Source: Saururus chinensis
Taxonomy: Eukaryota > Streptophyta > Magnoliopsida > Piperales > Saururaceae
DNA: 64,000 nt
NCBI GenBank assembly: GCA_035235625.1
Contig: CP141143.1
Location: forward strand, 14,429,092 to 14,493,091
Direction: 5' to 3'
Under the pieces are notes generated by a model. The model worked only from the letters and a program-made list of their open reading frames with translations. It was not told the origin of the DNA and did no database searches. The stretch's first letter is position 1, and every line of letters starts with the position of its first letter. Of this stretch, positions 17,250 to 50,400 are shown piece after piece. A program made the position numbers and the translations under genes.

Positions 17250-18887
17250 ATAGTCACTGACCATGTATTAGCATATGACCAGTCTGCAAGAAAAGTGCTA
17301 TATATAAATTTACTTCTTAAGCATCAGGCTAAGATTACTGCGTTTGTTGTGTATTGGTTCCACCGGATTTAAGGTATTGATCCAAGGTCATCTTCCTACG
17401 GATATGGTTTTGGGAACCTCTCAGTTCAATTATTTGCAACCCATAATGTAGGATGAAACTACTGAAGGACTCGCAGGAGGGAATGTTGCAGGCCAGTTAC
17501 TTTGATATGTCCTACCTTTATTAGAATTAGATTGTATTAGATTTGAGATTTCAGCTTTCTTAGATTAGGTTTCCTTTCTTAGATTAAGTAGGATTTAATA
17601 TTTTAATTTTATCACAATTCATGATCGACTATTTTCCTTATGCTAATAGGATTAATTTCTAATTGCCCTATAAATTGTAGTTCACAACCATCTGCTAAAA
17701 AATTATTAAAAATTTAGCAATTCATATAGTTAATTAGTTTGCCCTTTCTCTCCTTCTTCTCTTCCTTTTTTCCTTAAATTTTCCTGTGTAGATTATAGTC
17801 TACATCGTACTTCCTTACTACAAATGATTAAAGGATTACTTAATTCTGCCAAATAAAAAAGAGAGAAAAGAAAATTGGACAATGATGACTTGATCATTTT
17901 AACCTCTGTCTTCCTCGATCTTGTCTCTGTTCTTTGACACTGCTCTTTCATGCTAGATTTATTAACTTTCATATGTATAAAGCTTATGACTAAGTCTGAG
18001 CACTAGTGTTTAAGATGTGAGAATGTAGAGGAGATGTGAACACCATGTAGTGTATCAGTGTTTTCTTTTACTTTGCGTGCTATAACTTTGTAAAACAAAA
18101 TGGATCTTGTAAAGAACAAACTATCATACTATCATATTGTTGGCCTATTTAGCATGACATTGTCTTCTTTTACTCAATATCAGCAGGTTGTATATTTTTA
18201 AATTTGTTTGTATATGATTTTACATTGTGTATCAATTAATAGCCATCAGAAATATAGTTTTTGTAGAATTGCCTCTGATGTTTATATGTTTATTTTGTAG
18301 CAGTACGTGACACAAAATCTACCTTTGCTGCCAGACCAAGGACAATTAAAGAGAGATACAGACCAGTTCCATTATGTGTTCCCATTTTGCTTCCTGTCCC
18401 ACATGCATTGGCAAACAACTTTTTTGTCCTTTTCGATCTTATTTGTAAACAGTTTTTCATAATTTGTGCCTTTAACATTCCTTTCCCTAATTGCTAGTGG
18501 TCTACATCTCCTTATAAAGCCGTTAAACATAGTTGCCTCTTACTGTGAGGAATTAACATATGAGAAAAGATAAATGCTCTCATTTTTGTGAATAAGTTAC
18601 AATTAACCAAAAAAAGCATCATGGGCATTCCAGGTTTGCATGTTGATCTCTGCTTGTGCTAATTGTTAAACCGGCTGCTCTACGAATAATACTAAAAGTT
18701 GACTCCTTAATTTATCTTATGATGAAGACACCTGTGAGAGAAATCTAAAAGTTGGTATACTTTTGCAAAATTTCCAAAATAATACTAATATTAATAATAC
18801 TGTTAGAAGAGTATTTGTTCGTAAGGCAGACCATTCAGAAATAAGATTATATAAAGATGACCAAACTACCCTCTATAAATAGAAATA
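17250..18887. repeat. Tandem duplication, copy 1 (unknown unit, ~1.6 kb)
   Basis: Three blocks (about 17,290-17,490, 17,810-18,660 and 18,690-18,887) recur in the same order at 18,990-20,880. They share many long identical runs, such as GCATTGGTTCC-type words and the AAGCTTATGACTAA region. Copy 1 differs by the LTR-like insertion at 17,508-17,804. One block (18,300-18,420) corresponds to the exon-like piece of copy 2 but its open frame is shifted. No working gene. Confidence 0.75.
17508..17804. mobile_element. Small LTR-like insertion (TG...CA, 297 bp) in copy 1 only
   Basis: Copy 2 of the tandem duplication lacks this block, so it is an insertion (or a copy-2 loss). It starts TGTCCTACC and ends GTCTACA, like a short solo LTR or TRIM. 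The flanking pentamers TGATA and TCGTA agree only at three positions, so the target duplication is weak. Confidence 0.4.
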
Positions 18888-18986
18888 CTCCCTCTATCTC
18901 ACATTAATAGCTCCATTTGGTTATTCAGAATGAACTAATTTGTTCATTTTGAAAACCAAATGGAACTTAATGCGGGATAGAGGGAG
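18888..18986. mobile_element. Stowaway-type (Tc1/mariner) MITE, 99 bp
   Basis: The ends CTCCCTCTATCTCACATTAA and its inverse GGGATAGAGGGAG form a nearly full-length palindrome (CCATTTGGTT...AACCAAATGG) between TA dinucleotides at 18,886-18,887 and 18,987-18,988. Confidence 0.85.
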
Positions 18987-19723
18987 TATAATATATAGAA
19001 TTACTTCTTAAAGCATCAGGATACTTAGATTATTGCGTCTGTTGTGTATTGGTTCCACTGGATTTAAGGTATCGATCCAAGTTTGCAGCTCCTTTATGAT
19101 CTACCTACGGATATGGCTTTGGGAACCTCTCAATCCAATTCTTTGCAACCCGTAGTGTAGGATGAAACTACCGAAGGACTTGCAAGAGGCAGTGTTGAAG
19201 GCAATTTCATTGCAGATACTTTGCCTTTTACTTCCTAGCTACAATTGATTAAAGGATTACGTAATTCTGCCAAATAAAAAAGAGAGAAGAAAATTGGACA
19301 ATGATGACTTGATCATTTTAACCTCTGTCTTCCTCGATCTTGTCTTTGTTCTTTTACACTGCTCTTTCAAGCTAGATTTATTAACTTTCATATGTATAAA
19401 GCTTATGACTAATGTTGAGCCCTAGTGTTTAAGATGTGAGAATGTAGAGGAGATGTGAATATCATGCAGCGTATCAGCATTTTCTTTTACTTTGTGTGCT
19501 ACATCGCCACAACTTTTTAATACAAAATGGATCTTTTTAAAGAACAAACTATCACACTATCAGATTGTTGGCCTATTTAGCATAACATTGTCTTCTTTTG
19601 CTCAATATCAGCAGGTTGTATATTTTTAAATTTGTTTGTATATGATCTTACATTGTGTGTCAATTAATAGCCATAAAAAATGTAGTTTTTGTAGAATTGC
19701 CTCTGATGTTTATTATGTAGCAG

Positions 19724-19828
19724 TGACACAAAATCTACCTTTTGCTCCCAGACCAAGGACAATTGAAGAGAGATACAGACCAGTTCCATTATGTGTTCCC
19801 ATTTTGCTTCCTGTCCCACATGCATTGG
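19724..19828 (+). pseudogene. Exon-like fragment of an unidentified gene in copy 2
   Basis: After an acceptor-like TATGTAGCAG an open stretch reads TQNLPFAPRPRTIEERYRP, then VPLCVPILLPVPHAL, and ends at a donor-like GTAAAC. The matching piece of copy 1 (18,303-18,412) has a frame change in LPL/LPDQ. A second possible exon begins after CCAG at ~19,982. The family is not recognised and no full gene can be built, so this is probably a gene remnant duplicated with the unit. Confidence 0.35.
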
Positions 19829-20394
19829 TAAACAACGTTTTTGTCCTTTTTTTTCTATATGTAAACAGTTTTTTGTAATTTGTGCCTTTTACATTCCTTT
19901 TCCTAATTGCTAGTGGTCTATAACTCCTTATAAAGCTGATAGGCATAGTTGCCTCTTACTGTGAGCATCATGGGAATTCCAGGTTTGCATGTTGATGACC
20001 TTAGTCACTGCTTGTGCTGTTTGTTAAACCGGCTGCTCTACGAATGATCTTGCAATTGGGTGTGAAGCCTTCTTGGTTCAGTATATTCACAGATAAGCAG
20101 ACTCCATCTGCTGGAGATCTTCCCAATTATATGATCGAATCAACACTCCCCTCTCTTAGTGATTCTTCGCAATTATATGATCGAATCTGCTGGAAAGGAA
20201 ATGGAGAAGTAAATGAGGACACAATCTGAATTCAATCAGATGCGCAGTAGGCTTTGGTCACACATAGACTACTACACCTTTTCTTTCATATGTTTTGTTA
20301 TTATTTTATTTTTCATATCCTTTTTAGTGTAATAAAAAAAATTAAAGTATTTTTTAGATAAAATACAATTTTAGCCTCTAAATTATATTTTAAA

Positions 20395-20570
20395 CATTTA
20401 ATAACAAAAAAATAAAAAACCTTCGATAAAGTCAATCTGGCTTGACTCACCTCGAATTTGACTTGATGTTAAGCTTGAGCCATCATGGTTTGGCTTGTAG
20501 CACAAGCTCGAGTCAAGTAGTGCAGAAGCCCGACTCAGCTTAGCCACTATTCAACTTTTTATGTATGATT
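20395..20570. mobile_element. hAT-like MITE scrap (CTTGAGCC / GACTTGA words)
   Basis: Clusters of CTTGACTC, GCTTGAGCC and CAAGCTCGAGTCAAG resemble the subterminal sequence of the MITE at 3,614-4,212. Ends were not found. Confidence 0.35.
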
Positions 20571-20780
20571 TATTACATATTTTTTATTTTCTTGACTCCC
20601 TAATTTATCTTATGATGAAAACACCTGTGAGAGAAATCTAAAAGTTGGTATACTTTGCAAAAAGTCCAAAATAATACTAATAGTGATAATACTCTCAGAA
20701 GAGTATTTGTTCCGAGGGCAGACCAATCAAAAATAAGTTTATATTTTAGATGACCAAACTACCCTCTATAAATAGAAATA

Positions 20781-20861
20781 TTCCCTCTATCTCACAGTAA
20801 TAGCTCCATTTCAGTTCATTCTGAATAACCAAATGGAGTTATTAATGTGGGACAGAGAGAG
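20781..20861. mobile_element. Stowaway-type MITE, 81 bp, duplicated with its flank
   Basis: The element begins TTCCCTCTATCTCACA and ends TGGGACAGAGAGAG. Its left flank (ACCCTCTATAAATAGAAATA) is the same as that of the MITE at 18,888, so the insertion is older than the tandem duplication. It has lost part of its centre. Confidence 0.75.
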
Positions 20862-20880: not shown

Positions 20881-21941
20881 CATATGAACAATTACTTCTC
20901 TATCTAATACTACTGCTACTAATTCAAATAATAGTAATGAATATTATATAGTAATAATAACAATAATGATAATAATAATTACTATTATTATTATTTGCCA
21001 CATTGGCGAATTTCAGATTGCTTTGACACTGGTTATATTCTTTTATTCTTTACTCATTTTGAGAAATTTGTGTACAGAATATTGACAGAGTGAGCTGCCG
21101 CTCAAACAACTAGAATATACGTTTGTTTTTACTCAACTCAATCAACATGTATGAGGAGCCATTATCACTGGACCGGCCTAGAATTTGTTAGCCCTTATTG
21201 TTATGAATCATGGTGGTTTCACTGTGTTTTAGTAGCTTCTTTTGCTGTGCTGGTATGTGCTAAAGTTGTATGTATAAGTGTAACAAATTGCTATTCTATG
21301 AGATGTGTAAATGACATGGAGATATCTTCGGAGAAGAAGTTGGTAATTCTATCCGTTTTTATGTTTTATTTTGATTACGTATTTGATTTCAAGCTTAAGT
21401 ACAACTTATTTGAAATGTGGACACTTCGCAAGGGCCAAAAAGTTAAAAGTCTTTCTTTATGGATATGGTCTTTTCGCTCTTCTCTAGTTTCTCACGTTTT
21501 ACTTGTTATTTTGGAACATATAGAAACCCTGCTTTGGTATGCCTGCCATGTCTATTAAAAAACCACATACACGAAGAGCTAAGCTAAACGGTTACAAACT
21601 GGGGTTACCCAATTTGCTCATACTACCACCCGAACGTACAAAATATGCAAAATTTTCTCCAGTACTGATCGAATCAAAAGAATCTTCCAAATTGAATAAT
21701 GGTTATCACTTTGTGCGTAACAAGTTTATAATATGGTTTAATTAGCAATTGCAGGGACAAAACTTATACCCATTACAAGTTTCTACTTATTAGACAAAGA
21801 GATTAATGACAAAAAGGGAATAAGAAATGCATGATGCAAAGAAGAATGATGATGACTTAATTCTTTTCTGTATATATGAAAAGGCAGCTCTCAGCAATCA
21901 GCGAGGATGATGACTGAAATCTCTCTGGTGACTGACTGGTT
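20881..21941. other. Intergenic, 3' of FAD5; no gene recognised
   Basis: Contains an ATA/ATT-rich run near 20,920-21,000 and two moderately long plus-strand open frames (21,151-21,558, 21,539-21,745) with no recognisable family or splice context. Confidence 0.4.
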
Positions 21942-23673
21942 TCAGGTGCCTGAGGCTAGAGACAATCTTTGCTTGTGAGACTCGCTAGGTAGCTTGACGT
22001 CTGTGGCCAATCCAAGGGCCTGGAGCAGCCAGACGACGCACCAAGTCAAGTCGAGCTGCCACCACTCTAGGCCATGTCGAGCCGAGTACTCAAAAGCATG
22101 GTGATTGTTGTGCCACCCTTCTCCAAAGGCAAGCATCGCCACCCACCTGAAACACAACCGAGCATTAATTCCACAATTATTAAGAGTTGTTTTATACTCC
22201 TATATAGCAAGCATGACGATACCAGTTGTTCCTGGACAAGTCCCCGGTGTTCCATGACTGGCTACCCCATACATGACATGCCGAATTCACCAGCCATGTT
22301 ATGTGGTATACCCACACGATCCTCACACCCTGCGCCCACATCAAAACCATTAATCAACACTTATAATTTGATGCTAATTTTTTTTAATCTGTATGCTAAA
22401 TAGTCTCAATCCTGAGGGACCTCTGCCACTTGTAGGTATAAACGTCTTGGCTGCTAGCCACGGTTTAAAAGAAAAACATCTTAATTTTTTTTAAATTATA
22501 AATTATAAAAGAATATGATACCGAGAAGTTTTGAAGTGTTCCCAAAAAAAGATCTATCCATGATAAAAATAGCCTCTCACATGTGACCACCGCTAGTACG
22601 GATGACTACTGGAGGTGGGTGGTCCCGCGCACTAGACGTCACGTGAGGACACTCAGAATGGTGGGATCCTGGACGCCACAAAGCGCTTACCATGCCCCAA
22701 ACCAGGAAGGGGAAGCCTCCAGCAGCGTACAACACAAGGGCGAGAGCGATGGGGTGAGCAACGTACGTCTGCCGCATAAACCTGTAAAACTGCTGCCTCT
22801 CCAGGTCCCCTACATTGCTCGCTTCTCCGCACTGCACCACATCACAAACTCAAAGCTCAGAACCATCCCATCCCATTCAGCCTGGAATCCCATATTGGAA
22901 GTGGTTGTGTTTTACCCTCTGGGTGATCGACTCTGTATCAAAGAGCCAGCTGATGTGGCTGAACCAAAACCCTTCTGTCGGGCTGTGGGGGTCTCTCTCC
23001 GAGTCGCAGTACTGGTGGTGGTACCTGTGCGTGCTCACCCAGTCCAGTGGGTTTCCCTGCAGCAGCAGCAGTAGTAGCCAATCAGCCATGCACATGCAAA
23101 TGTCACACGTCCATTGTTGTATCAAGTGTGATACTTGTGATGGTGCATTTCGTCAGTCACCTGGAGAGCCTGGGCGCCGCAGTAGGCGAAGGCGTACTCG
23201 AGCCACTTGGGAAGCTTGAAGCTCCGGTGCGACAGGTTCCTGTGGAAGGAGAGCGTGATCCCGAATAAGCCCGTCACCACGTAGAGCGCCGCCGCCGTGC
23301 AGACAGCCCCCCAGTTGAACGCGAATGGCGCGAACAGGGACAGCACGTGCATTGATAGCACCACCGACGCGGTGGTAATGTCCCGGAAGTTCCACCTCCT
23401 ACGCCAGTATACCCGTCGCCTCCGCTCCACCGCCACGTCCGAGAATAGAATCCTCCCGCATTCCGCGTCCGCCGCCGCGCGCGTTGTAAAGGGCCTTCCT
23501 TTCACCTTGCTGCGAACTCCTCCCGGTCTGGGTCGATTTCTCAGGCGGAGTGATGTCCTCCGGACTTCATAGACAGGGAGTAGTCTGGCCAAATTTGTTT
23601 CAAGGATGCGAGGTCGAGGGTGCTGCTTCTTGACGAAATTAGGCGGCGGTGGAGCTGAAAGTGCCAGAGCCAT
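21942..23673 (-). CDS. FAD5: Palmitoyl-MGDG delta-7 desaturase, chloroplastic (FAD5/ADS3-like)
   Basis: Five exons (23,161-23,673; 22,916-23,056; 22,691-22,831; 22,223-22,329; 21,942-22,146) with GT/AG ends in phase give 368 residues. The first ~85 residues are rich in Arg, Ser and Pro without acidic residues at the start, as in a chloroplast transit peptide. Three histidine boxes of membrane acyl-lipid desaturases are present: HRNLSH (144-149), HRYHH (181-185) and HNNHH (313-317), plus NSACHVWG. The C-terminus ATDVKLPSE is diagnostic of the plant ADS/FAD5 group. FAD5 introduces the delta-7 double bond into 16:0 on monogalactosyldiacylglycerol, the first step to 16:3; the plastid-targeted start favours this over ER-type ADS desaturases, though substrate cannot be proven from sequence. 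It is divergent from a PIFI pseudogene 404 bases away. Truncated paralogues lie at 1-540 and 28,460-28,727. Confidence 0.88.
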
Positions 23674-24077
23674 TGAGTTGGGTCATGCAAAGGTCACGCC
23701 TTTGGATGCAGTCCTCTATATGAACTTCTAGGTTGAGGTGGAGAAATGCTGGTAGATAGGCATATCATAGTTAAAGAAGAGGCCGGAATCCGGATTATGT
23801 TCCCACCTATAACTGGGATTGGGTTCTCTTCCATATCGTGGAAAACAATTCTTTCTTCATTAATTTGATGATTACCAGATTTTTTTTGGCAACATGTGAT
23901 TTGTCCCTTTACGAAGCCCACTGGATAGGATGAGGAGATTTTCTCTGTCGGTGTTCCCCGCTTCCCCTCGTCCACACAATGTCATGGAGCCTTAAAGCAG
24001 TGTTGCTGATGGATAACTAACTACACGAGGACCATTGTAGGCGTAGCTGTGTACTTGAATTAGGCTTCGCGTTTCAC
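23674..24077. promoter_or_regulatory. Shared divergent promoter of FAD5 and the dead PIFI copy
   Basis: The 404 bases between the two start codons contain the leader and promoter DNA of both genes. Much of it (for example CCTCGTCCACACAATG and AACTAACT-CACGAGGAC words) recurs between the start codons at 28,728-28,995. It must now drive only FAD5. Confidence 0.65.
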
Positions 24078-27000
24078 ATGGTGACTGCCTTCACGAGTGC
24101 CACCTTTCTCTTGTTATTCTCGCCTTCCCCATGCCAGCCTTGCCATCAAAACCGTCTGTTGGACAATTGTTGCTCGCGGGTCAAAGGTAGCATGCTATTC
24201 TCCGTCCACATTCTCGTGTGCACCTTTTCATCCTATTTTCCCCTGATTAATTTTGCATGAGGTCGTTTTCAGTGGAAAGTGAAACTATGATGTAGGATGA
24301 ATAGCGCCTCATCAATTACTTCTTTGAATTTCATCTGTGCACTTTCTTCTTATTAGTTCAATGGATAAGAATTTATTGTATTGTAGCTGTCAGCAATCTA
24401 AAATCATCGCAATTGACTAATTTACTGGATCAAATTTCTAATAATGAATCCTTTGATTGCGTTTGTAGTTATTGAGTATCTACTAGAAGATCAGGTGTTA
24501 AACCTGCGGTTGAGACGTTCAGATTTCAGACGAAGGTGCATTTTTTAAGAAAGATATGTTATTGAACAGTCTTTTGCAAATGTAACTCAACACTAGCAAG
24601 TACTGACCATCTGACGTCTGCATCGCAGTTGATAATTATGAATCTCATTCTGCCCAAAAGGTTTTAGCAACCACATCCAGTATACCAAACATCATTAGCA
24701 ATTTAACATGACAGCAGGAGTGGAACTTTTAGGCCTACAAATTACAACTTCCGAGGAGAAGAAAAGTGGCTAAATGTTTTGCTTCTTTTGATGAACACTT
24801 TCGATTCTATTGACTGAGATTATACTGTTGCCAACTTTGTTTCCTCTTCATTTTCTTTTTTATTTGGAAGACTGCTAGGTTTTATCGTAAATTTGTAGCA
24901 TGAGAAATTCTTGATTCAACCATGCTTCAGTTTTTGTTTTGGAATGAATGGTCTTAGCATTTGCAAGATTGCTGTATATGTGTAATGATTAAGTACTTGA
25001 ACTGTATACATGCTTATACTCATATACATGCACCAACTTGCAAAGCCTCCTTGCACCATTTTGTTAGACTTGCAACTATGTGGTTTTCTTTTGCTTTTAT
25101 ACCTGTGTATATTTAAATCACTGGAATCTGTTGTGTCTTACCTTGGATAGGTATTCTGATGGACCCTGAGACACATAAATGTTGCCTATCTGCTGTAGTA
25201 CAGTGTAATATTGACGCCTAATTATTGTTATAACCCTACAACCACTTCTCTCTATTGCAGATAATGGTTTTGTGCAAGTTGGCTTGCTGCCACATATATG
25301 AAAGCCAAGGAAAACTGCTAAGAGTGGAAAAGTTAAAAGTTGTCTTGACATCTGCCATGTAAAAGGCAAAACAGTCTACCATCAAACAGTTAATAGGATC
25401 TTCTATATTCCCCTATTTCCTGCTCTAAAAAGTGCAACTGTCTTGCTGTTCTTTTACATTCGATTTCACTCATATGCTACTTACATGTTGCTTTATTTCT
25501 TTAAAAATTGTATAAGAACAATGGTAGTTGATCATAAAAAGAGTCAAATGTTGATGTACAATTCATATTGCCAACCCCGTATAGCTGTTATATGGCACAG
25601 GATGATGATGATGATGATTGGTTTCAAATTTGATATGTTGATGCATAACACGCCACAAAGGAGGATATTAACAGTGGTGATAATCAATGAGTTTTCTTTC
25701 TTTTTGTCCTTAGTGAGTGATCTAGTCTCATATATCTTCTTATATGACCAAACTTCAAGATTGTGTTCATATAGCATACAATTGATTTTTAGTTAACGGG
25801 CTGACTAACGTTCAATCACTGCATGCACCCTTTCCTTTTCCAATATTTTTCTCAAATGAAAAGTTTCTAATCATTTGAAACTGCTACCCATTTTATTCAA
25901 TGGCTTCTACATCCTTCATCTAGCACACTGCCAATATGTACTACTCTGAATGTGGAAGCGGTTTAGGTGACTGGAGTCACGAGTTTCACTCGGTCCAGTT
26001 CAGGAAGGAGCTTATACCCTATATGTAGTGAAAGGATAATATAGTACCAGAGTTTCTTGTGAAGTTAAATAAAATTAATTTACGAAATATACACTTCCCT
26101 GACCTACATGGATGTAAATAGCCTCACTGAAAGATCAGTCATTGCTTATACTTACAACATAATGATATTGCGTCCTATTATTCTGAAGCTTTTTCTGTGA
26201 ATATAATTTCAAAATGAGAAAACCTGTATCATTTGCAAGATGGAAATTTTGATTTTAGGCTGGATAATATGATATATACAGAATGCCACAATTTTGGGAT
26301 ACTCTAGATGTATCTCATCTTATAGGGTAATAGTCATCTGTAAGGAAATTCGCAAGGGGCGTAAGTGTTGCAATGAAAATCATATTATACGTCTTTACCA
26401 ATCATAAGCCTTCATCCATGATAATCATCCTTGCTAAGAGACCTGACGGGTTTATTGCTATTACTCTTCCAATGGCTATAGCCAAGGTTTTGGATTCTGT
26501 CATCTGTGTGTATTTAAGCTTATCTATACACAATATGATGATCCAGGAGTGTAGTATTGAACATTTCATGCTTCTCAAACTGTTCTAGTTTCAGCTGATA
26601 CTCTTGTGTTTCGGGTACAAACTACCTACATGGGCCGAATTAGACCTTGGACTTGCTCTAGTGTATTGGAAAGCCAATGATGGTTTTCCTCCTGCCACTA
26701 CAACTCATTCTTATGGATGTGAGTTGAAAATGACTTGGTTTCCTGATTGTGAGTTTCCTTAAGTTCTTTATTGAAGGGAGGCAAATTGACTCTCTTTGGC
26801 AATTTCTCAAACAAGTTAGTTCCAGATGACGACAACTGACCTAGTTTGGAATTGCTTTCAAATGTAATTCATTTCATTATATATAGATATACATTGTGAT
26901 TTTCCCCTGTAATTCATTTGAATGCCCTCTTGGATAATAGAATGCATTTTGCAGGAGGTTTTATTCCACCAATTATCTGTGGAAGTGACGGATGGTAATG

Positions 27001-27550
27001 ATAAGAAAAGTTGAAAAGCTGATCCTCGTATCTTCACGATCAATATATATGTCCCGGGATGTGGTCAATTTCCATTTTGTGAAAGATAATGACTTTAAAA
27101 CGTTAAAATGCTCCAGCATTCCATGAGAGTATCTTATGCGGTTATCCTCTTGAAATGGAGGTTTATGCAACCGTAATATACAGTTCTGTTATGTTTATTT
27201 AGCATAATTTTGTATACGTCTATCTCCACCTGTGAATTTGGTTTTCCAATTCACGGACGGAGTTGATTGGAATGGTCTACACAAGCTGAAATTTTAAGTT
27301 CCAAAAAAACAATCAAGTTCCAAAGAATTTGCGTTTAAACCAATCAGCTTTTTAACGAGATGAACATCTTATTCAGTATCATTTTTATACGACATTTAGT
27401 TCTTAAGTGTTGAGGAGGTTGAAGAGGAGCATATGCATTCCCGTCTCATGTTGCCATGTGAATTTCATGGTCAATTCTATCGATTTCCGTGATCTAAAAT
27501 TTTTAGGTCTATGAATCTACGAAGTCAGTTTCTCTAATTACTCCTAAGTC
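24078..27550 (+). pseudogene. PIFI pseudogene (left copy)
   Basis: Parts collinear with the intact PIFI gene at 28,996-34,357 are visible: exon 1 (24,078-24,186), exon 2 (25,260-25,370), exon 3 (26,615-26,699), exon 4 (26,778-26,864), exon 5 (26,955-27,030) and exon 6 (27,245-27,340), with matching introns between. Defects: a stop after LLPHI in exon 2; exon 3 acceptor CAG changed to CGG and its donor GT lost; exon 4 acceptor lost and a stop after PDDDN; a stop after CGSDGW in exon 5; insertions in exon 6. Similarity runs into intron 6 and stops near 27,550, so exons 7 and 8 are gone. Exon 1 is still open, so it could yield only a short peptide. It lies head-to-head with the live FAD5 gene. 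Confidence 0.88.
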
Positions 27551-27929
27551 CCACGCCCACCCAATCCATTATCCATCTAAATGAGATTATTCATTCTATC
27601 TTATGAAAGAATTTTCGCATTGAGACATGAATTTTTCATTTTGTTTTGATGGTTGGCTTGGTTAGGTTTCTTAGACGTTGCTTTAACTTCATACTTTCTT
27701 TGTATCATATTATTATTTTTACTTATTTTTTGAAAATACACTAAAAATTATTTAAAAAATAGATAAAACAGTTAATATGAGACATATAGAGTAGCTAACT
27801 AAGGGGCTATTTGGGAGATATATTGGAGGGAAAAATAGAGGGGAAAATTAATTCCTCCTAAAACATAGAGTTAGTGGGAAAGTACTTTTTTGAAATCTTA
27901 ATGTCTCTTAAATAACCTCTAAAGCACGA
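27551..27929. other. Breakpoint region right of the PIFI pseudogene; no gene
   Basis: AT-rich sequence that no longer matches the PIFI gene. Confidence 0.35.
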
Positions 27930-28116
27930 AAAAATATTAGATACGGATAGGTTACCAACGTGGTGGTACTTATCACTAATCAAAAATTTACTTATTTATA
28001 TATTTTTCTATTAACCCTTTAAGAATAACCTATTTAATAAAAAATATAATAATATCTTAAATTTTGATTAGTGATAGCCATGTCACATTGGTACTCTATC
28101 AGCACTTAATATTTTT
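27930..28116. mobile_element. MITE-like foldback, 187 bp
   Basis: AAAATATTAG...GGTTACCAACGTGG and ACTTATCACTAATCAAAATT on the left are mirrored by AATTTTGATTAGTGATAGCC and CACATTGGTAC...TTAATATTTT on the right; arms are about 65 bp. Superfamily not assigned. Confidence 0.6.
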
Positions 28117-28459
28117 CTAAAAAGAGCACGGTTTGAAAAGAAATTTAATTTTTCCACTTAAATATAATATGTTATATTAAGAGAAAAAAATCAAAATAAG
28201 GAGAATTGGTCTGAAAGCGCTTTCCCACCCTTGGGAGCCTCTTAAACAGTTAAACGACATTAACTGAGAATGCACGCGCTTATAGTGCATACAAGTCGCT
28301 GCCATAAAAATAAAATATAATTCAAATTACTCATTCTTTTTTATGGATGTAAGTAAAAAGTGGGTACTCTTTTATTTACAAAATCAACAAAAGGAAAGGA
28401 GCGACCATATATTAGCAGTTGTGTCTTGGATTTGAGATGCCATAATCAGCTGTGATTTG
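28117..28459. other. Intergenic; no feature seen
   Basis: AT-rich DNA before the FAD5 exon remnant; missing downstream FAD5 exons should have been here if the copy were complete. Confidence 0.35.
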
Positions 28460-28727
28460 TTACATTCCATCCAAATACTCACTGATGGTGCAATCGTCCG
28501 TTGTTGCATGGAGCTCGGTAGGCGAAACCGTACTCATGCCACTTTGGGAAGCTTGGAGAGCTCCGGGTAATCCTCCCGCATTCCGGCTCCGCTTCCGCCG
28601 GCGCCGAGAGGATTGGAAATGACCTTCCTTTCGCCCGGCGGGTCTGGGTCGGTTTCTCAGGCGGAGTGATGTCCTTGTGGATTTGTTGATGATATTTCCG
28701 TGGAGCTGAAGAAAATGTCGGAGCCAT
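28460..28727 (-). pseudogene. FAD5 first-exon remnant (right copy)
   Basis: On the minus strand the piece starts with ATG at 28,727 and includes, in shifting frames, TSLRLRNRPRP, also found in the intact FAD5 transit peptide region, then AEPECGRI, and then jumps to FPKWHEYGFAY, equivalent to LPKWLEYAFAY of FAD5. The sequence between (over 200 bp in FAD5, including the first histidine box) is deleted, and no exon 2-5 follows. It cannot encode an enzyme. It is placed divergently from the intact PIFI gene exactly as FAD5 is from the PIFI pseudogene. Confidence 0.85.
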
Positions 28728-28995
28728 TGCGTCCCTTGTTTTTTTTTTCGTGGTAAAAAAATCATTTTTCCATGTTTCTAATGGTCTCCAGATCTTTTGG
28801 CGACATGTGGTTTGTCCGTTTATGAAGCCCAGTTGATGAGGTGGAGATTTTTCTCTCTCAGGGCCGCCATTCTCCTCGTCCACACAATGATAGTGAGACC
28901 GTAAAGGCCTTAAAGCAGTCTTGCTGATACAGAACTAACTGCACGAGGACCTTTGTAGGCGTAGCTGTTTGCTTGAGTTCGGGTTCGTGTCTCAC
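28728..28995. promoter_or_regulatory. PIFI promoter/leader, remnant of the divergent FAD5-PIFI promoter
   Basis: Homologous to the interval 23,674-24,077 but ~135 bp shorter, mainly on the FAD5 side. Shared words include CTCCTCGTCCACACAATG-like and GGCGTAGCTGT. It now serves only PIFI. Confidence 0.6.
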
Positions 28996-31900
28996 ATGGC
29001 GACCGCCTCCACCGGCGCCACCTTCCTCTCGCCACTCTCGCCCTCCCCATCGCAGCCTTGCCATGAAAGCCGTATGCTGGTCCACTGCAGCTCTCGGGCC
29101 AAAGGTATCTTGATATTCTCCGTCTGCGTTTACGTGTTGATTTACCCATCTGGTTGATTTTGCGATTTATATGATATTTGTTTGGGTGGAAAATAAAACT
29201 CTGGTATATCATGCATAACGCCTCATAATTTACTTCGTCGAATTTTGTTTCTGCATATTCTTCTTATTAGTCTTCAGTGGTTAAGAATTTATTGCATTGG
29301 AGCTGACTCAGCAGTCTAAATCACCACAATTGACTGTTTTACTAGGTTGCATCTTCTAATGATGAATCTTTTGACTTATTTTGGGGTTCTTATTTATAAG
29401 AAGATCAGGAATTTTAATCTTACCGTCGAGAAGTTAAGAGGTTTGATGAAAAAGAACTTTTGAAGAAAGAAGACGTGTTATTAAATGGTCTTTTACAGAT
29501 GGAATCTCAGCTCGAACAGTACTGGCCATCAGACGCCTGCATTTCCTTATCCTACTTAAAAGGTTTTATAGTGAACTAGCGATATGTTCTTCACATAAAC
29601 TCAATATCATCACTAGTATAACCACAGGAGTGGAACTTTCAGGCCTACAAATTACAATTTCTGAGGAAAAGAGAAGTGGTTTAATGTTGTGGTTCTCTCA
29701 TGACCTATGTTGTTTCGTTTGGCTGAGATTGTACGGTTGCTAGCTTTGTTCTCCCTGCATTTCCTTTTTACTGGGAAGACTTCTATAGGTCACCGTAAAT
29801 TCATTGCATGAGAATTCTTTGATTCAATCATGCTTTAAGGATTTGTTTTGGAGTGAATAATCTAGCATTTGCAAGATTGCTATATTTGTGGAATCGATTG
29901 AACGTTCGACATTGCAACTATGTGGTTTAGTTTTGCTTTTATACATGTGTAGCATATTTAGATCACTGGAAATTGCTGTGTATTATCTTTGGATAGCTAT
30001 TATGATGGACCCTTGGAAACATGAATGCTGCATATCTGCCGTAGTAGAGTGTAATGTTCACACCTAATTATGGACACTGCAATGACTACTCTCAACAGCA
30101 GATACTGGTTTTGTGCGAACCGGCTTGCGGGTACATATACAAAAACTAAGGAAAACTACTAGGACTGGAAAAGTTAAAGCAGTCGTGACACCTGTTGTGG
30201 AAGAGGCAAAAGAGTAAGTGTGACTACGATTCTACAATTAACAGATTCTTTTATTTTTCACTATTTTTTTCTCTAGAAATTCCATATATCTTGTTGGTGT
30301 ATTATATTCAACTTCATGCATATTCCACTTTTATGTTGATTTATATCTTTTAAATTTATGAGAATAATGAGAATTGATCATAACTACGGTCAAATAGTGA
30401 TATAGAATCCTTACTGCCAACATCAGATAGCTGCAGTTAGGCACAGATCATGACATCATAAAAGAAGGAAATTGAAACTTGAAGATAGTGTGGTCCAATT
30501 AATCAGCTTTCTTTATTTTTGTCCACCAATAGGTAACCATTTACCTGGCCCACTTTTAAATTTGAATTTGGTAACAGGAAAATTAGTAGGGTCTTTTACC
30601 TGCCCATTTGTTTACCAGGTAGGGTATAGATGCCCCTTCCTTCATAACTCAAATCAGTTGGCCATTTTCATTTATTTTTCCCTTAGCCTGGACTTAACCA
30701 AGTTGAATTATATGTTGTGTCGCTTATGATCGAAATAATTTTAATAAGATCAGTTTACTATCTTAAGTTGCAGAATTTTCATTCATTTGAAAATTAAATT
30801 AGACTTTGAAATTTTTTATTTTATTTTTTACATGACTTTTTTTACCCGATTACCCACCCATTCACCCAATGGGTAATGGATAAGAATTTAAAAAATGGAT
30901 AAGGTAAAGGTAAAAAATGAGGAAGCAGGTATGGAGACCGGTTGATAACACTATCCACAGTGAGTGTGGTCTAGTCTACTTATTTCTCCTTATGCGACCA
31001 AACATTGAGATTGTATCCATATAACAAGTTTGATATTGACTTAACAGGCTGACTGGCATTCAGTAGCTGATGTGTTGGTCCTTTCCTTTTCCGAGATTTC
31101 TCATCTCAATGATTCTTTCTCTCTTGAAAAATATGTAAGCAAATGAAAATTTTCTAATCAGTTTGGAGTGCTACCCAATTTGTTTAATGCCTTGACTTTC
31201 TCCTTTGCTACATGCCTCGTCTTATACTATAGTCCAATATGAAGGAAGTGCTCAAACTTAGGAGTGGGGTTATTTAGGTAACTGAGGTCATCATTCCAAT
31301 CTGGCTCCAGTTTCAGCAATGGAAGGAGCCCATAACTGAAATTTTGTGAAAGGACAGTATCATACCAGAGTTTCTTGTGAAGATAAAAAAAATTTACACT
31401 TGTCTCTAACCCACATGGTGGTAAATAGGGTCACTGAAAAATAAAGGTCATTACTTGTACTTCTTACGAAATAATGATATAACATGTCCTATTACTCCGA
31501 AGCTTTTTGTTACAATTTAAATTTAGAATGAGGAAATTTGTACCATTGCAAGATGCAAATTTTAATCACAGATTTGATAAGTTCAAAAACAGAATGCCAC
31601 AGTTTTGGCTTCCTCTAATATATAACTTTTCATATTGGTTAATATTCATATATCCAGAAATTTACCGGGAACTGTAAGTGTTGCAATGAAAATCATACTG
31701 TGAAGTTTTACCAATCAGAAAACTATGCCCATGATAATCATCCTTGCTAGGAGATCTGATGCTTTTGTTGCTGTTCCAGTGGCCGTAGCCAAGGTTTGGG
31801 CTTCTGTTTTATGTAGCCCCGGCTGGTCGGACTATGTTCTACTGGACCCGGTGGACAAAACAGGCCGGTCCATCTAGGCCAGTGTGACCTGCCAGGTCAC

Positions 31901-34357
31901 ACTGGCCTTACCGGTTGAGCTGCTGACCCAGGTCAGACTCCACCAACACAAAATTTTTATGCGAGATCAGGGATTCGAATCATAGTCCTGTCAAGCTCTA
32001 ACATCAGCTACTAACCCAGTAGATTACAATGGACTTGTGCATACTTGTTGCCCAACTAATACATTTAATTTGACCCATGTGGCCTTTGTAATGGGTTATA
32101 TTTTAGCTTCTGACATCATCAGCGTTTGAACCTGGTTGACCCAGCACTGTGACCCATCCAGATAAATTGCCAGGCCGGTTTTATATTTAATTTTATCCAA
32201 ACATGAATATGATGCTCCAAGAGTGTAGTTTTAAGAATTTCAAGCATGTTGAACTGTTCTAGTTTCAGCTGATATTGTGTGTTTCAGGTACACACTACCT
32301 ACATGGGCCGAATTTGACCTTGGACTTGCTCCAGTGTACTGGAAAACCAATGATGGTCTTCTTCCTGCTTCTGTAAGTCATTAGCATGGATCACAGTCAA
32401 AATATCTTTTGGTTTCTGATTATGACTTTCATGAAGTGTTTATTGACAGGGAGGCAAATTGACTCTCTTTTACAATCCCTCAAATAAGTTAGTTCCAGAT
32501 GACGAGTTTGGGATTGCTTTTAACGGTAATTCGTATCATTATGTGTTTGTGATCTTTTTCCCTGTATTTCATTTAAATGCCCCCTTGAATAAATAGAATG
32601 CACCTTTCAGGAGGTTTTAATCAGCCCATTATGTGTGGAGGCGAGCCCAGGGCAATGACAAGAAAAGTTCGAGGAAAAGCTGATCCTCCTATCTTCACGA
32701 TCAAGATATGTGTCCCTAGACATGGTTAGTTTCCATTATGGCTACTTTGAAATGCGTCACCATTCCATGAGATTATTTCATGTAATCCTCTTAACATGGA
32801 GGTCTATGCTATCTTTCTGTACCATTGGATTTGATGCCTGACTTTCAGAATCAAGAGGAGCAAGATCGTCGATTCTGTTTTATAAATATTTAGATATATG
32901 GTATCATTTTGTATTTGTCTATCCACAGCTGTTAATTTGATTTTCTCATTCACAAACGGAGTGGATTGGGATGGTCCATACAAGCTGAAATTTCAAGTTC
33001 CAAAGAATTGGGGTAACAAACCAATCAGCTTCTTTAACGAGGTGAATGTCTCGTTTAAATTTTTCTTGTCTATCTTCATTTTCAGACAGTATTGAATTCT
33101 TGTTACATATTCAAAACTGAAGTCATCTGCTATGTCAAACTTCTCCTACTTGTTTGCATATGTGTTTTCCAAGTGAGGGGATTGAAAGAGGATTTCTCGT
33201 TCATCTTCATTTTCATAGGGTATTGAATTCTTGTTACGTGTTCAAAACAGAAGTCATCTGCTATGTCAAACTTCTGCTACTTGTTTGCATATGTGTGCCC
33301 CAAATGAGGGGATTGAAAGAGGATTTCTTGTTCATCTTCATTTTCATACAGTATTGAATTCTTGTTACGTGTTCAAAACAGAAGTCATCTGCTATGTTAA
33401 ACTTCTGCTACTTGTTTGCATATGTGTGCCTTAAATGAGGGGACTGAAAGAGGAGCATAGAAGTAAGAGAACCACCGAGTTTATGCACATTCTCATATGC
33501 TTGCCCTTCCCATTTTGCTATGTGAATTTCGTACCCATTTGTATCCATTTTATGACTAAATTTTAGGCATTGATAGCTTGAATGTGCACACCATGATGCG
33601 ATCCAAAATTTTTGGGAGGTCTATCAAGTCAGTTACTCTCAATCCCTTCAGGTCTTTTCCTGGTGGGACCCCTATAGGACATATTTATTGTGTAGAGCAC
33701 CAGGCTTTGCTGCAGTGAAATAATAACAGGAGGAGGTTGCTTACAAAATCATTGCAATTTGAAATGTGGCTCCCTTTGTGTGAAAGGAGCTTGCATACTA
33801 ATGGCCCTATTTCAATCCCTAGTAGGCCACTTTGGGGCTCATTGATAAAAGGGGGGGTTGGTTGGACTAGAAGGCGTGTTAAAGAACATACAGGTGAAAT
33901 TGAGAAATAATATAAAAAAAAGTATAAAATTGAGAAAAAATGGGGGTTTGACTTGACTTGTTCAATTATAGGCATTTAAGCAAACATTTAAATGTTATAA
34001 TGCAGGGTCTGGCAGAAGAATTAAGTAAAGAAGGAGCCTGTGATCAAGCTATCTTTCCAGATTCAAACATAGTCATCACGCGATGTGCAATGATTGGAAA
34101 TTTGTCGATTGAAGGGGTAACATTAAATGCCCTTGTCAAAAAAATTTAAATTAAGAATAAACGTGGGTATTAATTGTTGTCTGAGGAGTTTTCTTTTCTT
34201 TCGACTGACCTTTTATTTGTGCTTTTATATTCAGGGAGATCGATGCAATTTGGACTTTGTGCTGGGATGCACGGATCCAAGTTCACCATTCTTCGACCCA
34301 CTTGCAAATGTTGATGACGGTTCTTGTCCAATTGATTCAGACTCAGAAAGTACATGA
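28996..34357 (+). CDS. PIFI: PIFI, post-illumination chlorophyll fluorescence increase protein, chloroplastic
   Basis: Eight exons (28,996-29,104; 30,102-30,213; 32,288-32,372; 32,450-32,525; 32,611-32,724; 32,929-33,041; 34,006-34,116; 34,235-34,357), all with GT/AG borders in phase, give 280 residues. Residues 1-36 are Ser/Ala/Pro-rich, as in a plastid transit peptide. Conserved PIFI blocks follow: [73 protein letters not shown] and the C-terminal [11 protein letters not shown]...NVDDGSCP. In Arabidopsis PIFI is a stromal protein needed for the NDH-linked dark reduction of plastoquinone (chlororespiration); its biochemical activity is not known. Introns 2 and 6 carry an insertion and a 131-bp tandem repeat. 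A dead copy lies at 24,078-27,550. Recognition is from memory of the family. Confidence 0.88.
31814..32182. mobile_element. Insertion in PIFI intron 2, absent from the pseudogene copy
   Basis: The flanks line up with 26,480-26,540 of the PIFI pseudogene, which lacks this ~370-bp GC-richer block. Its ends CCCCGGCTGG and CCAGGCCGG are roughly inverse. It contains GGATTCGAATC (31,971-31,981), like a Pol III B box, so a SINE is possible, but I found no A box or poly(A) tail. Confidence 0.5.
33068..33455. repeat. 131-bp tandem repeat, three copies, in PIFI intron 6
   Basis: TATTGAATTCTTGTTAC begins at 33,090, 33,221 and 33,352, an exact 131-bp period. The copies share AGTCATCTGCTATGT and TGTTTGCATATGTGT with few differences. 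The pseudogene copy does not show three units. Confidence 0.9.
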
Positions 34358-36636: not shown

Positions 36637-37649
36637 TCAACTGATGCGCCTGTACTGGGCAGCCGCTGCGGCCGAATCAACGGCCACCTGATCTGGGTGT
36701 CCTCCGACATGGGCGAGGCAGCCTCTCTTCCTGCTCTCTTCGTACTTGCCGGCCAGAGAGTCGAAGAGGTAGCCCGCCCCCACACCCACGGCCAGGTCAA
36801 TGGTGTAGTGGCCCCTGGTGGCCAGAAGTCTCACTCCTTGCAACACGTTCAGCGTATCGAATGCCCAAGCCATCTCCTTCCTGTTGGTACGCCGCATGTC
36901 CAGTGACGCAATCACCGAGCCCGCCACATGACCGGAGAAGAAGAGGAAGAATGACACATTGCCCACCGGGAAATCCACGCCGGAGCCCAGAAACCCCTGG
37001 ACACAAACGAGAGTATATTTTGTTTAATTCCAGATTTTTTAAAATTTTCCGAGGGCTGCTTGTTGATCTACCTGTGGTAATGGGAGCTGGGTGGAATACC
37101 CCAGGATCCCTCTGCACGTAAACATGAATAGGGCGGAGATGGTGGCTCTTGGCCTCCCCTCCACCAGCCATGTCCACAATATGTAGGTCGTCTGCATGCC
37201 CACAAACACCTGGATGCATGGCAGAATCATCAGATAAATGAGGTCTCGTAAAGATGTAGTTCCAGACTACAAGAATGGGTTACGTATGGAATGGCAGTTA
37301 CCGTGTTGAGGGCAGCAAGGGCGGTGTTGAGACGGGGCCTGAAGGCGAGGACGCGTTGGAGGGGGAGCGTGAGAACAAAGCCCAGATCGAAGGGAGGGGA
37401 AGAGGGCGGGACCATGCGGAGGGTGTACTCGACGCCCATGAAGAAGAGGAGGGAAACGGCGAAGACACAGGGAATGGGGTGGTAGCGCACCAGATCCACC
37501 GCGTCCTCAGTGGTCCACGTCATGAAGGAGGGCTTCTCGCCGGGAGAGGCCGCCGGGCTCCTCTGTTTGGTGGCGGTGGGGGGCTCTCGGGGTTTGACAG
37601 CCCGCTGGTTGCAGGGCTGGGGGTGGTGGGCGCCGTTAGAAGAGGCCAT
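36637..37649 (-). CDS. ROD1: Phosphatidylcholine:diacylglycerol cholinephosphotransferase (PDCT, ROD1)
   Basis: Three exons (37,302-37,649; 37,072-37,209; 36,637-36,996) give 281 residues. Apart from a variable Pro/Ser-rich N-terminus, the protein follows ROD1: YHPIPCVFAVSLLFFMGVEYT, FDLGFVLT, VFVGMQTTYILWTWLVEGR, FMFTCRGILGYSTQLPLPQ and FLGSGVDFPVGNVSFFLFFSG. The lipid phosphatase/phosphotransferase catalytic residues would be H185 (SGHVAGS), H225 and D229 (GHYTID). The enzyme, a multi-span ER membrane protein, moves phosphocholine between PC and DAG and so feeds polyunsaturated DAG into seed oil. Start: the ATG at 37,649 lies ~65 bases after a TATATA box (37,713-37,718); another in-frame ATG at 37,733 is upstream of that box and was rejected. 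The Ala-rich C-terminus after KYEESR is lineage-variable. Confidence 0.93.
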
Positions 37650-37712
37650 GTCGGGCGGAGAGAGAGGGAGATAAGAATGCAGGCAAGTTACGGATGGGGG
37701 CGATAGAGGAGT

Positions 37713-37719
37713 ATATAAG
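37713..37719 (-). promoter_or_regulatory. TATA box of PDCT
   Basis: CTTATATAC on the minus strand, ~65 bases before the PDCT start codon; places transcription start near 37,685. Confidence 0.65.
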
Positions 37720-37749
37720 AAGATGGAGGGCAACGGCGCACAACAAGTC

Positions 37750-39460
37750 AGGGGACGCTTTTCAGTAACATATTATCGTAGAAAAGGAAGCATGAGAGCC
37801 TGAGATCTATGATGCATATTCTAGAGTTTAACTAGGCTCAGGAGAATTAAGGGCTCTATGCGCCGTTTAATTAGGCTCATTGTTAGTGGAGAATTTGAAA
37901 AACGTTTTCCATATAAAAAATGTTCATGTTTCTTGTTGAAATTAGTAAACTAGGATGGTGCTCAATTGGTCACATGCCAGTTGGGCTTCACATTTCCTTT
38001 TCAAGCATGCCCAAGAAACAAGAATAAGTAGATTTGCGTGTAAAATGTATATTTAATGGTATAAGGTAATGTTTAATCATGATGTTTATCTAGCTAGCTT
38101 TACAAACGTGTCATGTGGTCAACATAATGTGCAAGTAACTCCTTATCTACGATAATATTTATATAAGTCTGAAACACGGCGCTAATATTTTCACAACAAA
38201 AATACCTATAAAAATTTAAAATAAAAATTTATATAAGTTTTAATTGGATTGGATACGTGCCTACTTCTTAAGTCCAACCAAAATTTATGTATGAATTTTT
38301 ACAAATGTATTTTGTTATCGGAGTGTCAGTGTTCACTCGTGCGCTGTTGCGTACCTAATAAATTCTCCTTGGTCCTGGCCGTGATGTCTGTGAAGTGTGA
38401 ATTCGTGTAAGAACAAACCGTACAACTGGCCACTTGCATTTTTAGAAGGATCATTGGTGTCTTCATTCTTATGGAAGACTCCAACTCAAACGTGCACTTC
38501 TTTGTTGTGGTTAACCATTCTTGCCGAGAAGTGAGGCCACCAGCCAATGCTGGTTGCATTGGTCGGATGTATACAGCTGTATGCGTTCTTCGAGACCCCT
38601 GTGGGATCCAACTTCCAAGGCCAAAAGATTAGAATAAAGCTAAAGGTTGAGACGTTTGTTGTCTTGCTGATGGTGTCGAACGAGAGTGCAAATGAAACTT
38701 GTGATGAATGAAAACTGAAAAGGAGGACAGTAACAAGTCACACTAATCGGTGAGGAGTTAACGAGTAGGATGATAATACGTACCGAAGTTGCCAGGGGTA
38801 GTTGTATCATAATTATAGTGTTGATGATCATCCTTTTCTTCTTTCTTTTCTTCAAGAGACCTTTTTCTTCTTTGTTTTTTTTAACCCTCAAACATAATGA
38901 CAAAGTTATGTGAATTTTGTCATACAAAATTGAAAATTGATGATATGGACTTTATGCGAAAACTTTCAACCCCAAATTTATCACACTCTAGTTTGTCCTA
39001 TTTTTTTTCTTTTTGTTCCATAAACCGGTTTTAGGTGGATTTTTGGGATAAAAGTTTATTAATGAGTTTATTTTTGGGTCTCCCCATATTGAAGTTCATG
39101 TCAAGTTTCCCCGGACCTTCTTAATGATTCGTATTCTCCTACGGCCTTCGTGTTGCCCTTTCAGCCGGATTTTTTCTAATTTTCCTCTCTTTTTTTTAAC
39201 AGAACCAAAATGACCTTTGTCCAAATTGAATCACCCGATCTTGTCACTATGCCCTCGTAACGGAAAACTATCATTTCCTATATTGACAGAGATAGTCATA
39301 TTAAAATAAATAATAAATAAGATAGTCATTAACCAGTTCCTACAGGATCAAAACTCTGCCGAAGACTCACAGGTCTATACGTAGGCAGGGCCTACTGGAC
39401 ATAAAGCTTCAAAGAGATTATTGCATAAAAATTAGAATAGTAATGTTATATTAACTTTAG
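37750..39460. other. Intergenic, PDCT upstream; no gene seen
   Basis: AT-rich with no recognised element or coding sequence. Confidence 0.4.
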
Positions 39461-47492: not shown

Positions 47493-50400
47493 CCCCGCCC
47501 CCTGCCAAAACCCACCCTTCTTCCCCTCTCCGATCTAGACAAGAAACAGAACTATATCACAAAAAAAAAAATACAGATAACTCTACAGAAGGAGATCTTC
47601 GGTAGATCTGGATTGGGCGATCGACTGATTTGGGGAAGAGCGAGGGATTGCCGGTGGGGTTTGGTGAATTGGGTGGCGGTGATGGAGTTTTTTTTTGGTA
47701 AGAGAAGAGTAATCAATGGAGACGAAAATTAAAAGACTTTGTCTCCTTTTCCTAGCGGAATTGGAGTGGTCCGGGCGGGTGCGGATTGCTTCGGATTTAG
47801 CCGGCAAAAGTTAAAGATTACTCCTAGTCCTAAATGAGCTGGAACTTGGAAGTGAAAATGAAAACGGCGATTTCTTTTTACTTGGAAGTTTTAATGGAGT
47901 CCACTCGAGTAAAGTCGACCAATCTGGGCCGTTGGCTTTCGTTCCTTCTCTCTGTGTGGCATTGGAATCGCCGGATTGATGAACTCCTGGCCGGTTATTG
48001 CCAGGGGACTCGGTGACCATCGATCACCTTTTTTTATGTATTTTGGGTATAATATGGATGAGCTTGATTGAATTGGCTGAGCTTTCATTTTAGCAAAAAC
48101 AAAGAGATCATGGATGAACGAAGGAAGCCGGTATGAAAGAAGTCAACCCACCAAAAGGTGACAGCGGCAGGTTTGGTGAAAACTCTGACTCGTGGTCGAC
48201 CCGCCATGCGAACAGTTTCCGCGTTAAGTCCTTAACTCTTGTTTTCGGTCCACCGGTTCGTCCCTGACCGTGGGCTATCATCCACGCACAGGCGACTTGT
48301 TGATCACCGACTTTCCTGGTTTCCTCCGCGTGACAGCAATTAAGAATCAATCTTTATTCATTGGTAGAGTATTTTTAGGCGCTTGGATGAGTGATGGCAC
48401 CGGGTTAGGTTTGGGTCGAAAAACCCAAACTCGAAGATGCCAAATACAAGCCTGGCCCAATGCCCCAATTCAACTTATTTATATATTTTTAAAAACACTT
48501 AATTATAAATTTTAAAGTAATCATTAATTTTTTTTCTCACTTATCAAACAAGTTTTAAAGATTATTATTATTATATAAAAATAATAATTTTTATAATTTT
48601 AGTTAAGTCGAACCTGACCCGAGATTTAATTTAAAATTTTAACCCCAACCCTTTATAGGCATGTTCTATCGGAATTTTTCGTATAAGAACCCGAGTAGTA
48701 TCCCGTATTGAGTTTTATCCCTGTAACATTATAAACAGGAACGAACCTTCCTTCCGAGAAAGTATCTAGTAGAACCGCTCTACCACGTGGCCGTGCATAC
48801 CTCTATTCATATTTAAACACGTACACTGAAAGTTATGCCTCATCTTACTCACTTGTAAACACGTATCAATTGGTTAAACTTGTTAAACATCAACAAGACG
48901 TATCTACCACGTGGCCCGTGCAACGGTTCCACAGAATAATTTTTCCTTCCGGTGCCACTAGCTTTCATGCACAAACGCAGACAACAGCGCATCCATATGC
49001 AGAAATAGCGGTTCCATGTTCAAAATTCACAACTTTTGACAGCATATTTTCATTGGCCTTTCCCACCCCCATGTTCTAGGGCACTGTCCACGGAACTTTG
49101 TAGGAAACCAGACAAATAACAAACAAAAAAAAGTTGTCTCTTCGTTCCATCATTTGTGGATTCAATTCTATCAATCTCCCTACTTCGCACGTTATAGATC
49201 TTATTATTCATGCTCCATTTTCCTTCAAAGGCTCTACAGACTGCAAGTTTTATTATTAAAAAACGGGAACCACATCAAGTCCACACCACGGCCTTGTGGA
49301 CTAGTTGGACGTTCTGATGACTGGAACATACAAATGATACAAACGTTTCCTTTTCCTCTAGGCTTCTTTCTTACCTGACACTATTTTCTACCCTTTGCTC
49401 TTACTCTTTTCCTTCTAGAACGATCCAACATCACTTTCCTATGGACAAAGCAAGTCTCTGTCGTTCATCGCCTTGCCTTTCCCGCACCTAGCTTGTTCTT
49501 TTTCATGTCTCCTACTCTACCTTGCCTTTCAAATTGTCCTTTACACCGTTTTTAGTTTTCACTATTTCATCAGTGCCTCGGGGCCGCATTTTTTTACGAG
49601 GGAAAACCCCACTTTGTTTCCTTTCGATTAAAGATAAGCGAGTTTATTATCTCTAAAAGAAAAATGATATCAAGCAAGCATCATCCTTAACCATTTTCAT
49701 GTTCTAAACTAAACTTGTTTATGGGGTGTTCTTTTGCTGTGAAAGCCTAGCAGGCTAATATTACTATTTCAAGTGTGCCTGTTATGCTATTGCATACATT
49801 GCCTACTGCAGCGTACAACAATTATTTCTTTTCGTATTAAGACAGAAGCTACGGAAGAGGAACAAGTAATAACGTCATTTAAGAATGCATAATCAGAAGT
49901 AGATCTCTTAAGATACGTATATAAAAGAAATAATGATTTGTGTTTCTGGTCGTTCATCTTCATGGTAAAACTCTATATGATGAGTTTAGTGGACGCATTA
50001 AGCAGCAAAAAAATGCATTTCAAACTGTTTTCGTTAAACCAAATTTGTAGTAGAACTCGATTCAAAAGACTTCCCTTCATGCAGAAATCGGACTGACAAA
50101 AAAAAATCTAGAGATGAGACAAAACAAAGCCTCATAAGGGAAGAACAGTTTTTCGTCCCCTTTTCCTCTTCTTTGCTAAAGGGTTGGGCCTTCCTTTCCT
50201 GATTGTCCATTCCTTCCCATGCATCATTCATAACTCCTCGTATTTGTACTAGCCGCTTCTAAATCCTTCATCTTAATAACGGATTAGCATTTATGGTCGA
50301 ATGCTACTATACCAGGACGAGGAATGCGACCAATTTAGAGTGCATCACAGAAACCTCACTAAATTCACGATGCAATATTGTACAAAGGTGCATGCCACTT

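Follow-up and report, generated by a model that had tools for sequence, protein, structure and literature searches.

In Saururus chinensis, the photosynthesis-related gene FAD5 and PIFI, its divergently transcribed neighbor, are each present as one intact copy, and between the two intact genes lie a PIFI pseudogene and a relic of FAD5. These genes are found in a stretch of 64,000 nucleotides (the window; positions 14,429,092 to 14,493,091 of contig CP141143.1), which sits on a 48.5-Mb contig of the 516-Mb, 11-contig assembly GCA_035235625.1. The arrangement probably originated from a single tandem duplication of an internal segment that reached from intron 1 of FAD5 to intron 6 of PIFI, with the middle copies truncated at birth. 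An earlier reading of the sequence (the original prediction) had considered it an example of duplication followed by reciprocal gene loss. Its account of a duplication with complementary survivors and a homologous promoter region stands, but reciprocal loss in the sense of two gene deaths is not supported. The arrangement is real and cleanly preserved, and it is most likely a partial tandem duplication rather than demonstrated reciprocal gene loss.

Layout of the duplicated segment and its intact genes

Comparison of the window with itself by BLAST revealed a direct repeat in which positions 23182 to 27364 correspond to positions 28518 to 33046 in collinear blocks, with 73 to 97% identity per block. 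This bore out the prediction of a duplicated head-to-head FAD5/PIFI pair. The left unit consists of intact FAD5 on the minus strand (21942 to 23673), an intergenic region of 404 bp from start codon to start codon (23674 to 24077), and the PIFI pseudogene on the plus strand (24078 to 27507). The right unit consists of a relic of FAD5 exon 1 on the minus strand (28483 to 28727), an intergenic region of 268 bp measured in the same way (28728 to 28995), and intact PIFI on the plus strand (28996 to 34357). Both ends of the repeat fall within FAD5 and PIFI, and the truncated middle copies meet at a single junction, the pattern by which a partial tandem duplication is recognized. The tails of the left PIFI and the right FAD5 face each other across this junction, which is about 1 kb of dispersed repeats and otherwise unplaced sequence (27508 to 28482). 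The missing parts, exons 7 and 8 of the left PIFI and exons 2 to 5 of the right FAD5, thus adjoin in the array and stop at the same junction. Therefore, a single event can account for both truncations.

Left FAD5 has five exons (23161 to 23673, 22916 to 23056, 22691 to 22831, 22223 to 22329, and 21942 to 22146) with GT-AG boundaries throughout and an open frame of 368 amino acids. Its product matched the FA_desaturase family in Pfam (PF00487; E value, 2.7e-19) and the solved acyl-CoA desaturases 4ymk (2.2e-33) and 4zyo (1.1e-31) in PDB. Three histidine boxes, HRNLSH, HRYHH, and HNNHH, can be read directly in the 368-residue model; we take such motifs to be a mark of plant ADS-type desaturases. 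The designation FAD5 is putative and comes from the domain and the PIFI neighbor rather than from palmitoyl-monogalactosyldiacylglycerol (MGDG) delta-7 activity or plastid targeting. Right PIFI has eight exons (28996 to 29104, 30102 to 30213, 32288 to 32372, 32450 to 32525, 32611 to 32724, 32929 to 33041, 34006 to 34116, and 34235 to 34357), all bounded by GT-AG, and an open frame of 280 amino acids. The product matched the Ig_PIFI profile over its full length (PF25419; E value, 2.7e-67; profile positions 1 to 130 of 130). Both genes had been predicted to be intact, and if they were unconstrained the simulated probability of finding zero stops would be 0.006 for FAD5 and 0.037 for PIFI.

The 516-Mb assembly was searched with both proteins exon by exon, with only the best candidates scored. 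All 11 PIFI matches and all eight FAD5 matches were at this locus, three of the latter being 3′ fragments of FAD5 at or beyond the left edge of the window. No second intact FAD5 or PIFI, which the original prediction had named as a finding that would speak against it, was present among these best-scored candidates. Intact sequence for PIFI exons 7 and 8 and for FAD5 exons 1 to 3 was found once each in the assembly. A PF00487 family search of the assembly gave nine matches, all on other contigs. The lack of a match at the FAD5 locus indicates that this search is blind to short-exon genes such as FAD5. None of the nine places was matched by the FAD5 protein at an E value of 0.001.

Broken copies of PIFI and FAD5

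The lesions predicted for the left PIFI agree exon by exon with those found, except that the damage to exon 6 had been overlooked. Exon 1 (24078 to 24186) is open. Exon 2 (25261 to 25373) has one additional base and one TGA, and its donor is still GT (GTCTAC). In exon 3 (26615 to 26699) the acceptor has changed from AG to GG and the donor is lost. Exon 4 (26777 to 26863) has gained 11 bases, with a TGA, and exon 5 (26955 to 27063) lacks 5 bases and has several stops. Exon 6 (27230 to 27359) has a net gain of 17 bases and a TAA and has lost both its acceptor and its donor. Exons 7 and 8 are absent from the left copy, and the searches place them in the right copy only. Homology of the left PIFI could be traced into intron 6, where position 27507 corresponds to position 33567. 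Intron 6 of the intact PIFI includes a 131-bp unit in three tandem copies (33062 to 33454), and the pseudogene counterpart of this stretch is only about 65 bp.

Pairwise alignments, both local and global, confirmed that the right FAD5 is reduced to a first exon with large internal gaps and added about 20 bp of intron 1. Homology was traced into intron 1, where position 28483 corresponds to position 23138.

Two further FAD5 fragments, which the original prediction did not mention, are arranged in tandem at positions 1 to 523 (minus strand, continuing past the left window edge) and up to about 1.8 kb to the left of the window. They hold exons 4 and 5 and the 3′ flank, are homologous to positions 20994 to 22389 (Kimura two-parameter distance [K80], 0.07 to 0.21), and are now about 21 kb away from FAD5. 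The intervening DNA includes repeats as well as a reading frame that resembles a transposase (PF13359; 8497 to 8919). The possibility that they are the displaced 3′ half of the right FAD5 was rejected because they carry the FAD5 3′ flank and look younger; they look like separate partial duplications. As partial local copies that end inside FAD5, they are in keeping with a partial origin of the FAD5-PIFI duplication.

Origin of the arrangement

In the ancestral state, FAD5 on the minus strand and PIFI on the plus strand would have diverged from a short shared intergenic region. We infer that truncation was simultaneous with the duplication and that the breakpoints lay inside FAD5 (in intron 1 as far as homology can be traced, perhaps deeper) and in intron 6 of PIFI. 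A unit of this kind would have included the 5′ ends of both genes with the intergenic region between them, and neither 3′ end, so the outer genes would necessarily be full and the inner copies truncated. From left to right the product would have been full FAD5, the first intergenic copy, PIFI exons 1 to 6, FAD5 exon 1, the second intergenic copy, and full PIFI. Both middle copies would then have decayed neutrally, and transposable elements may have entered the junction later.

Divergence between the units was estimated from well-aligned blocks, which retained 3077 of the 3598 aligned columns. The introns have diverged to a K80 of 0.256 over 2164 sites. Nonsynonymous (dN) and synonymous (dS) divergence between the left and right PIFI was 0.175 and 0.236 over 198 of the 203 codons of exons 1 to 6, a dN/dS of 0.74 (bootstrap, 0.48 to 1.22). 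For the FAD5 relic, 64 of the 171 exon 1 codons gave a dN of 0.158 and a dS of 0.148. The PIFI differences were compared with simulations, which ignore indels and rate variation, in which the neutral rate was set from dS or from introns and the omega of the survivor was 0.1, 0.2, or 0.4. In all 18 settings in which the left copy was functional for at least half of the time, the 71.5 nonsynonymous differences observed were above the 97.5% limit, the largest of which was 70. With death of the left PIFI at duplication, 71.5 was within the range in four of six settings; when the left PIFI died one quarter of the way through, it was within the range only at omega 0.4. The substitutions indicate that the left PIFI has lacked constraint for most, and perhaps all, of its history since the duplication. 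Plant substitution rates are near 6.5e-9 per site per year, which gives only a rough figure of about 20 million years for the age of the duplication.

The junction includes at least three dispersed repeats, at about 27687 to 27812, 27928 to 28117, and 28140 to 28191. The second is a palindromic repeat of about 190 bp that resembles a miniature inverted-repeat transposable element (MITE). It has many dispersed copies: of 166 candidates, 40 were scored and gave 90 matches, with both strands of palindromes counted. The copies include a cluster on contig C3 near 48.89 Mb. The filler on either side of repeats 27821 to 28118 (27560 to 27820 and 28119 to 28480) was compared with the end of PIFI intron 6 and the PIFI 3′ side and with the FAD5 introns and 3′ side. 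Positive-control intron pieces of similar size scored 123, 187, and 256, and the four filler comparisons scored 28, 28, 32, and 41. Neither of these two pieces, which cover 623 of the 975 junction bases, showed clear remains of the missing 3′ parts or 3′ flanks. The reading of the junction as a relic of missing gene parts was set aside, with three of the four scores (28, 28, and 32) no higher than the maximum of 200 shuffles, although the fourth (41) is above it.

Several observations weigh against a single partial duplication. The score of 32, for a filler piece other than the one that scored 41, equals its shuffle maximum and is above the 95% level. The score of 41 comes from an AT-rich stretch (28127 to 28185) with a same-strand resemblance to FAD5 intron 3; it exceeds the plain-shuffle maxima (36 in 100 shuffles and 37 in 200). 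If this stretch were a relic, the unit would have extended into FAD5 as far as intron 3 or beyond. It would then have begun at intron 3, and would still have been partial, or the full pair would have been copied and then trimmed by a tail-to-tail deletion. Furthermore, repeats make up part of the junction of about 1 kb, and the original breakpoint is no longer legible there. With respect to timing, the PIFI changes are pairwise and unpolarized, the 71.5 nonsynonymous differences lie above even the immediate-death range in the two omega 0.1 settings, and the total of 99 differences in 594 sites fits, at omega 0.4, function of the left copy for half of the time.

The resemblance to FAD5 intron 3 appears marginal. 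Among 300 local dinucleotide shuffles, one attained a score of 41. Most of 28127 to 28185 lies within a dispersed repeat that fits a copy on another contig, C1, better (score, 67). FAD5 intron 3 also scores 46 against an unrelated spot in the 3-kb locus of that C1 repeat, which demonstrates that AT-rich matches of such size do occur. The stretch nevertheless makes the FAD5-side breakpoint uncertain and slightly lowers our confidence in the partial duplication, with a corresponding rise for duplication of the full pair followed by deletion.

That alternative, in which the full FAD5-PIFI pair was duplicated in tandem and one deletion soon took the facing tails, killing both middle copies, is possible but distinctly less probable. 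The left PIFI and the right FAD5 stand tail to tail, so a single deletion would yield the same map, and the marginal same-strand similarity to FAD5 intron 3 in the junction counts in its favor. However, it requires two events where one is sufficient, the two filler pieces compared show no clear trace of the missing 3′ parts or flanks, and the left PIFI lost constraint so early that the deletion must have followed soon after the duplication.

Independent reciprocal loss of the left PIFI and the right FAD5, after full duplication and a period of redundancy, is improbable. The survivors are complementary and each relic has many separate disabling changes, which speaks for this model, but point lesions are expected after truncation of any origin, and both truncations end at the one junction. 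Prolonged function of the left PIFI is also difficult to reconcile with 71.5 nonsynonymous differences, when the 97.5% limits do not exceed 62 if the copy functioned for three quarters of the time, or 54 if it functioned throughout. The early lack of constraint and the shared junction are the reasons why two separate gene deaths, as originally predicted, were not upheld. An assembly artifact, either a haplotig or a misjoin, is very improbable: an intron K80 of 0.256 is far above usual haplotype divergence and the relics carry many distinct lesions.

The two intergenic copies

The intergenic regions are homologous, with 206 of 254 aligned bases identical and a local score of 205 versus a maximum of 29 in 500 shuffles. 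This excludes the lack of homology that had been named as grounds for refuting a duplicated promoter. Both copies, at 404 and 268 bp, are within the <1-kb criterion for head-to-head genes. The right copy is 136 bp shorter, and the gap is mostly on the FAD5 side. Each survivor was thought to keep half of a former bidirectional promoter, but each retains a whole intergenic copy. FAD5 and PIFI likely each own a separate copy of a formerly shared region. The description of the pair as unlinked was too strong: the surviving genes are still adjacent and divergent, with start codons 5322 bp apart, a distance that places them, as now arranged, outside the <1-kb criterion. Special conservation of the promoter was considered and rejected, as the 43 differences in 224 sites (21 in 137 beside PIFI) were not clearly different from the 466 in 2164 intron sites.

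A private intergenic copy for each gene offers a natural test of whether a shared promoter constrains coexpression. It is very unlikely that both copies still fire bidirectionally and that the relics serve as a regulatory element through small RNAs against PIFI. If they did, the spacer would be transcribed from both ends, through the PIFI pseudogene from the left and from the FAD5 relic onward from the right. The transcript that starts on the right would then cross the PIFI pseudogene in antisense and might be a source of such small RNAs.

Comparison with other plants and the surrounding genes

A PDCT/ROD1-like gene lies beside PIFI on the minus strand (36797 to 37772). Its reading frame at 37230 to 37772 matched PF24788 (7e-7), and the frame at 36797 to 37279 matched no family in the Pfam scan. 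A ROD1 gene is presumably on the PIFI side in Arabidopsis as well, as judged by gene number: we take ROD1 to be At3g15820 and FAD5 to be At3g15850, labels that are compatible with the literature listing. We found no literature that names At3g15850 and At3g15840 together.

Arabidopsis PIFI is AT3G15840 (PMC11142341). In Brassica napus (PMC5066645), three FAD5 genes on A05 (BnaA05g23670D, BnaA05g23680D, and BnaA05g23690D) neighbor PIFI (BnaA05g23700D) by gene number, as do three on C05 (BnaC05g37420D, BnaC05g37450D, and BnaC05g37460D; PIFI, BnaC05g37470D). By gene number, FAD5 and PIFI are thus neighbors in Brassicaceae as they are in S. chinensis, and FAD5 is locally multiplied in B. napus too. 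In contrast to B. napus, for which one PIFI per segment is reported, S. chinensis has survivors separated by a pseudogene of PIFI and a relic of FAD5. The gene-number neighbors in Brassicaceae and the PDCT-like exon suggest that the neighborhood is old and the duplication derived.

Fragmented and tandem pseudogenes are common in plants, although fragmentation is reported not to be clearly linked to tandem origin (PMC7935947), and partial gene copies are discussed elsewhere (PMC6092874). The S. chinensis locus resembles the plant partial tandem duplications treated there (PMC7935947, PMC6092874) in that truncated copies lie close to an intact parent and decay neutrally, and in that the process has repeated locally. 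Unlike them, it involves a segment that crosses a divergent intergenic region, which truncates two different genes in one step and leaves the fragments flanked by the intact copies. A good copy of each gene together with two broken fragments is an ordinary outcome of partial duplication. The locus is a clear worked example of how complementary reciprocal loss can be read into a layout that geometry alone would produce once a single partial tandem duplication crosses a divergent intergenic region.

Just downstream of FAD5, the interval from 17300 to 20829 has direct repeats (17808 to 18549 and 19229 to 19965) that are about 93% identical over 727 sites (K80, 0.074) and is possibly a recent transposable element. 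Farther away, a minus-strand reading frame of 650 codons (45582 to 47534) has an ANTH domain (PF07651; E value, 6.1e-81).

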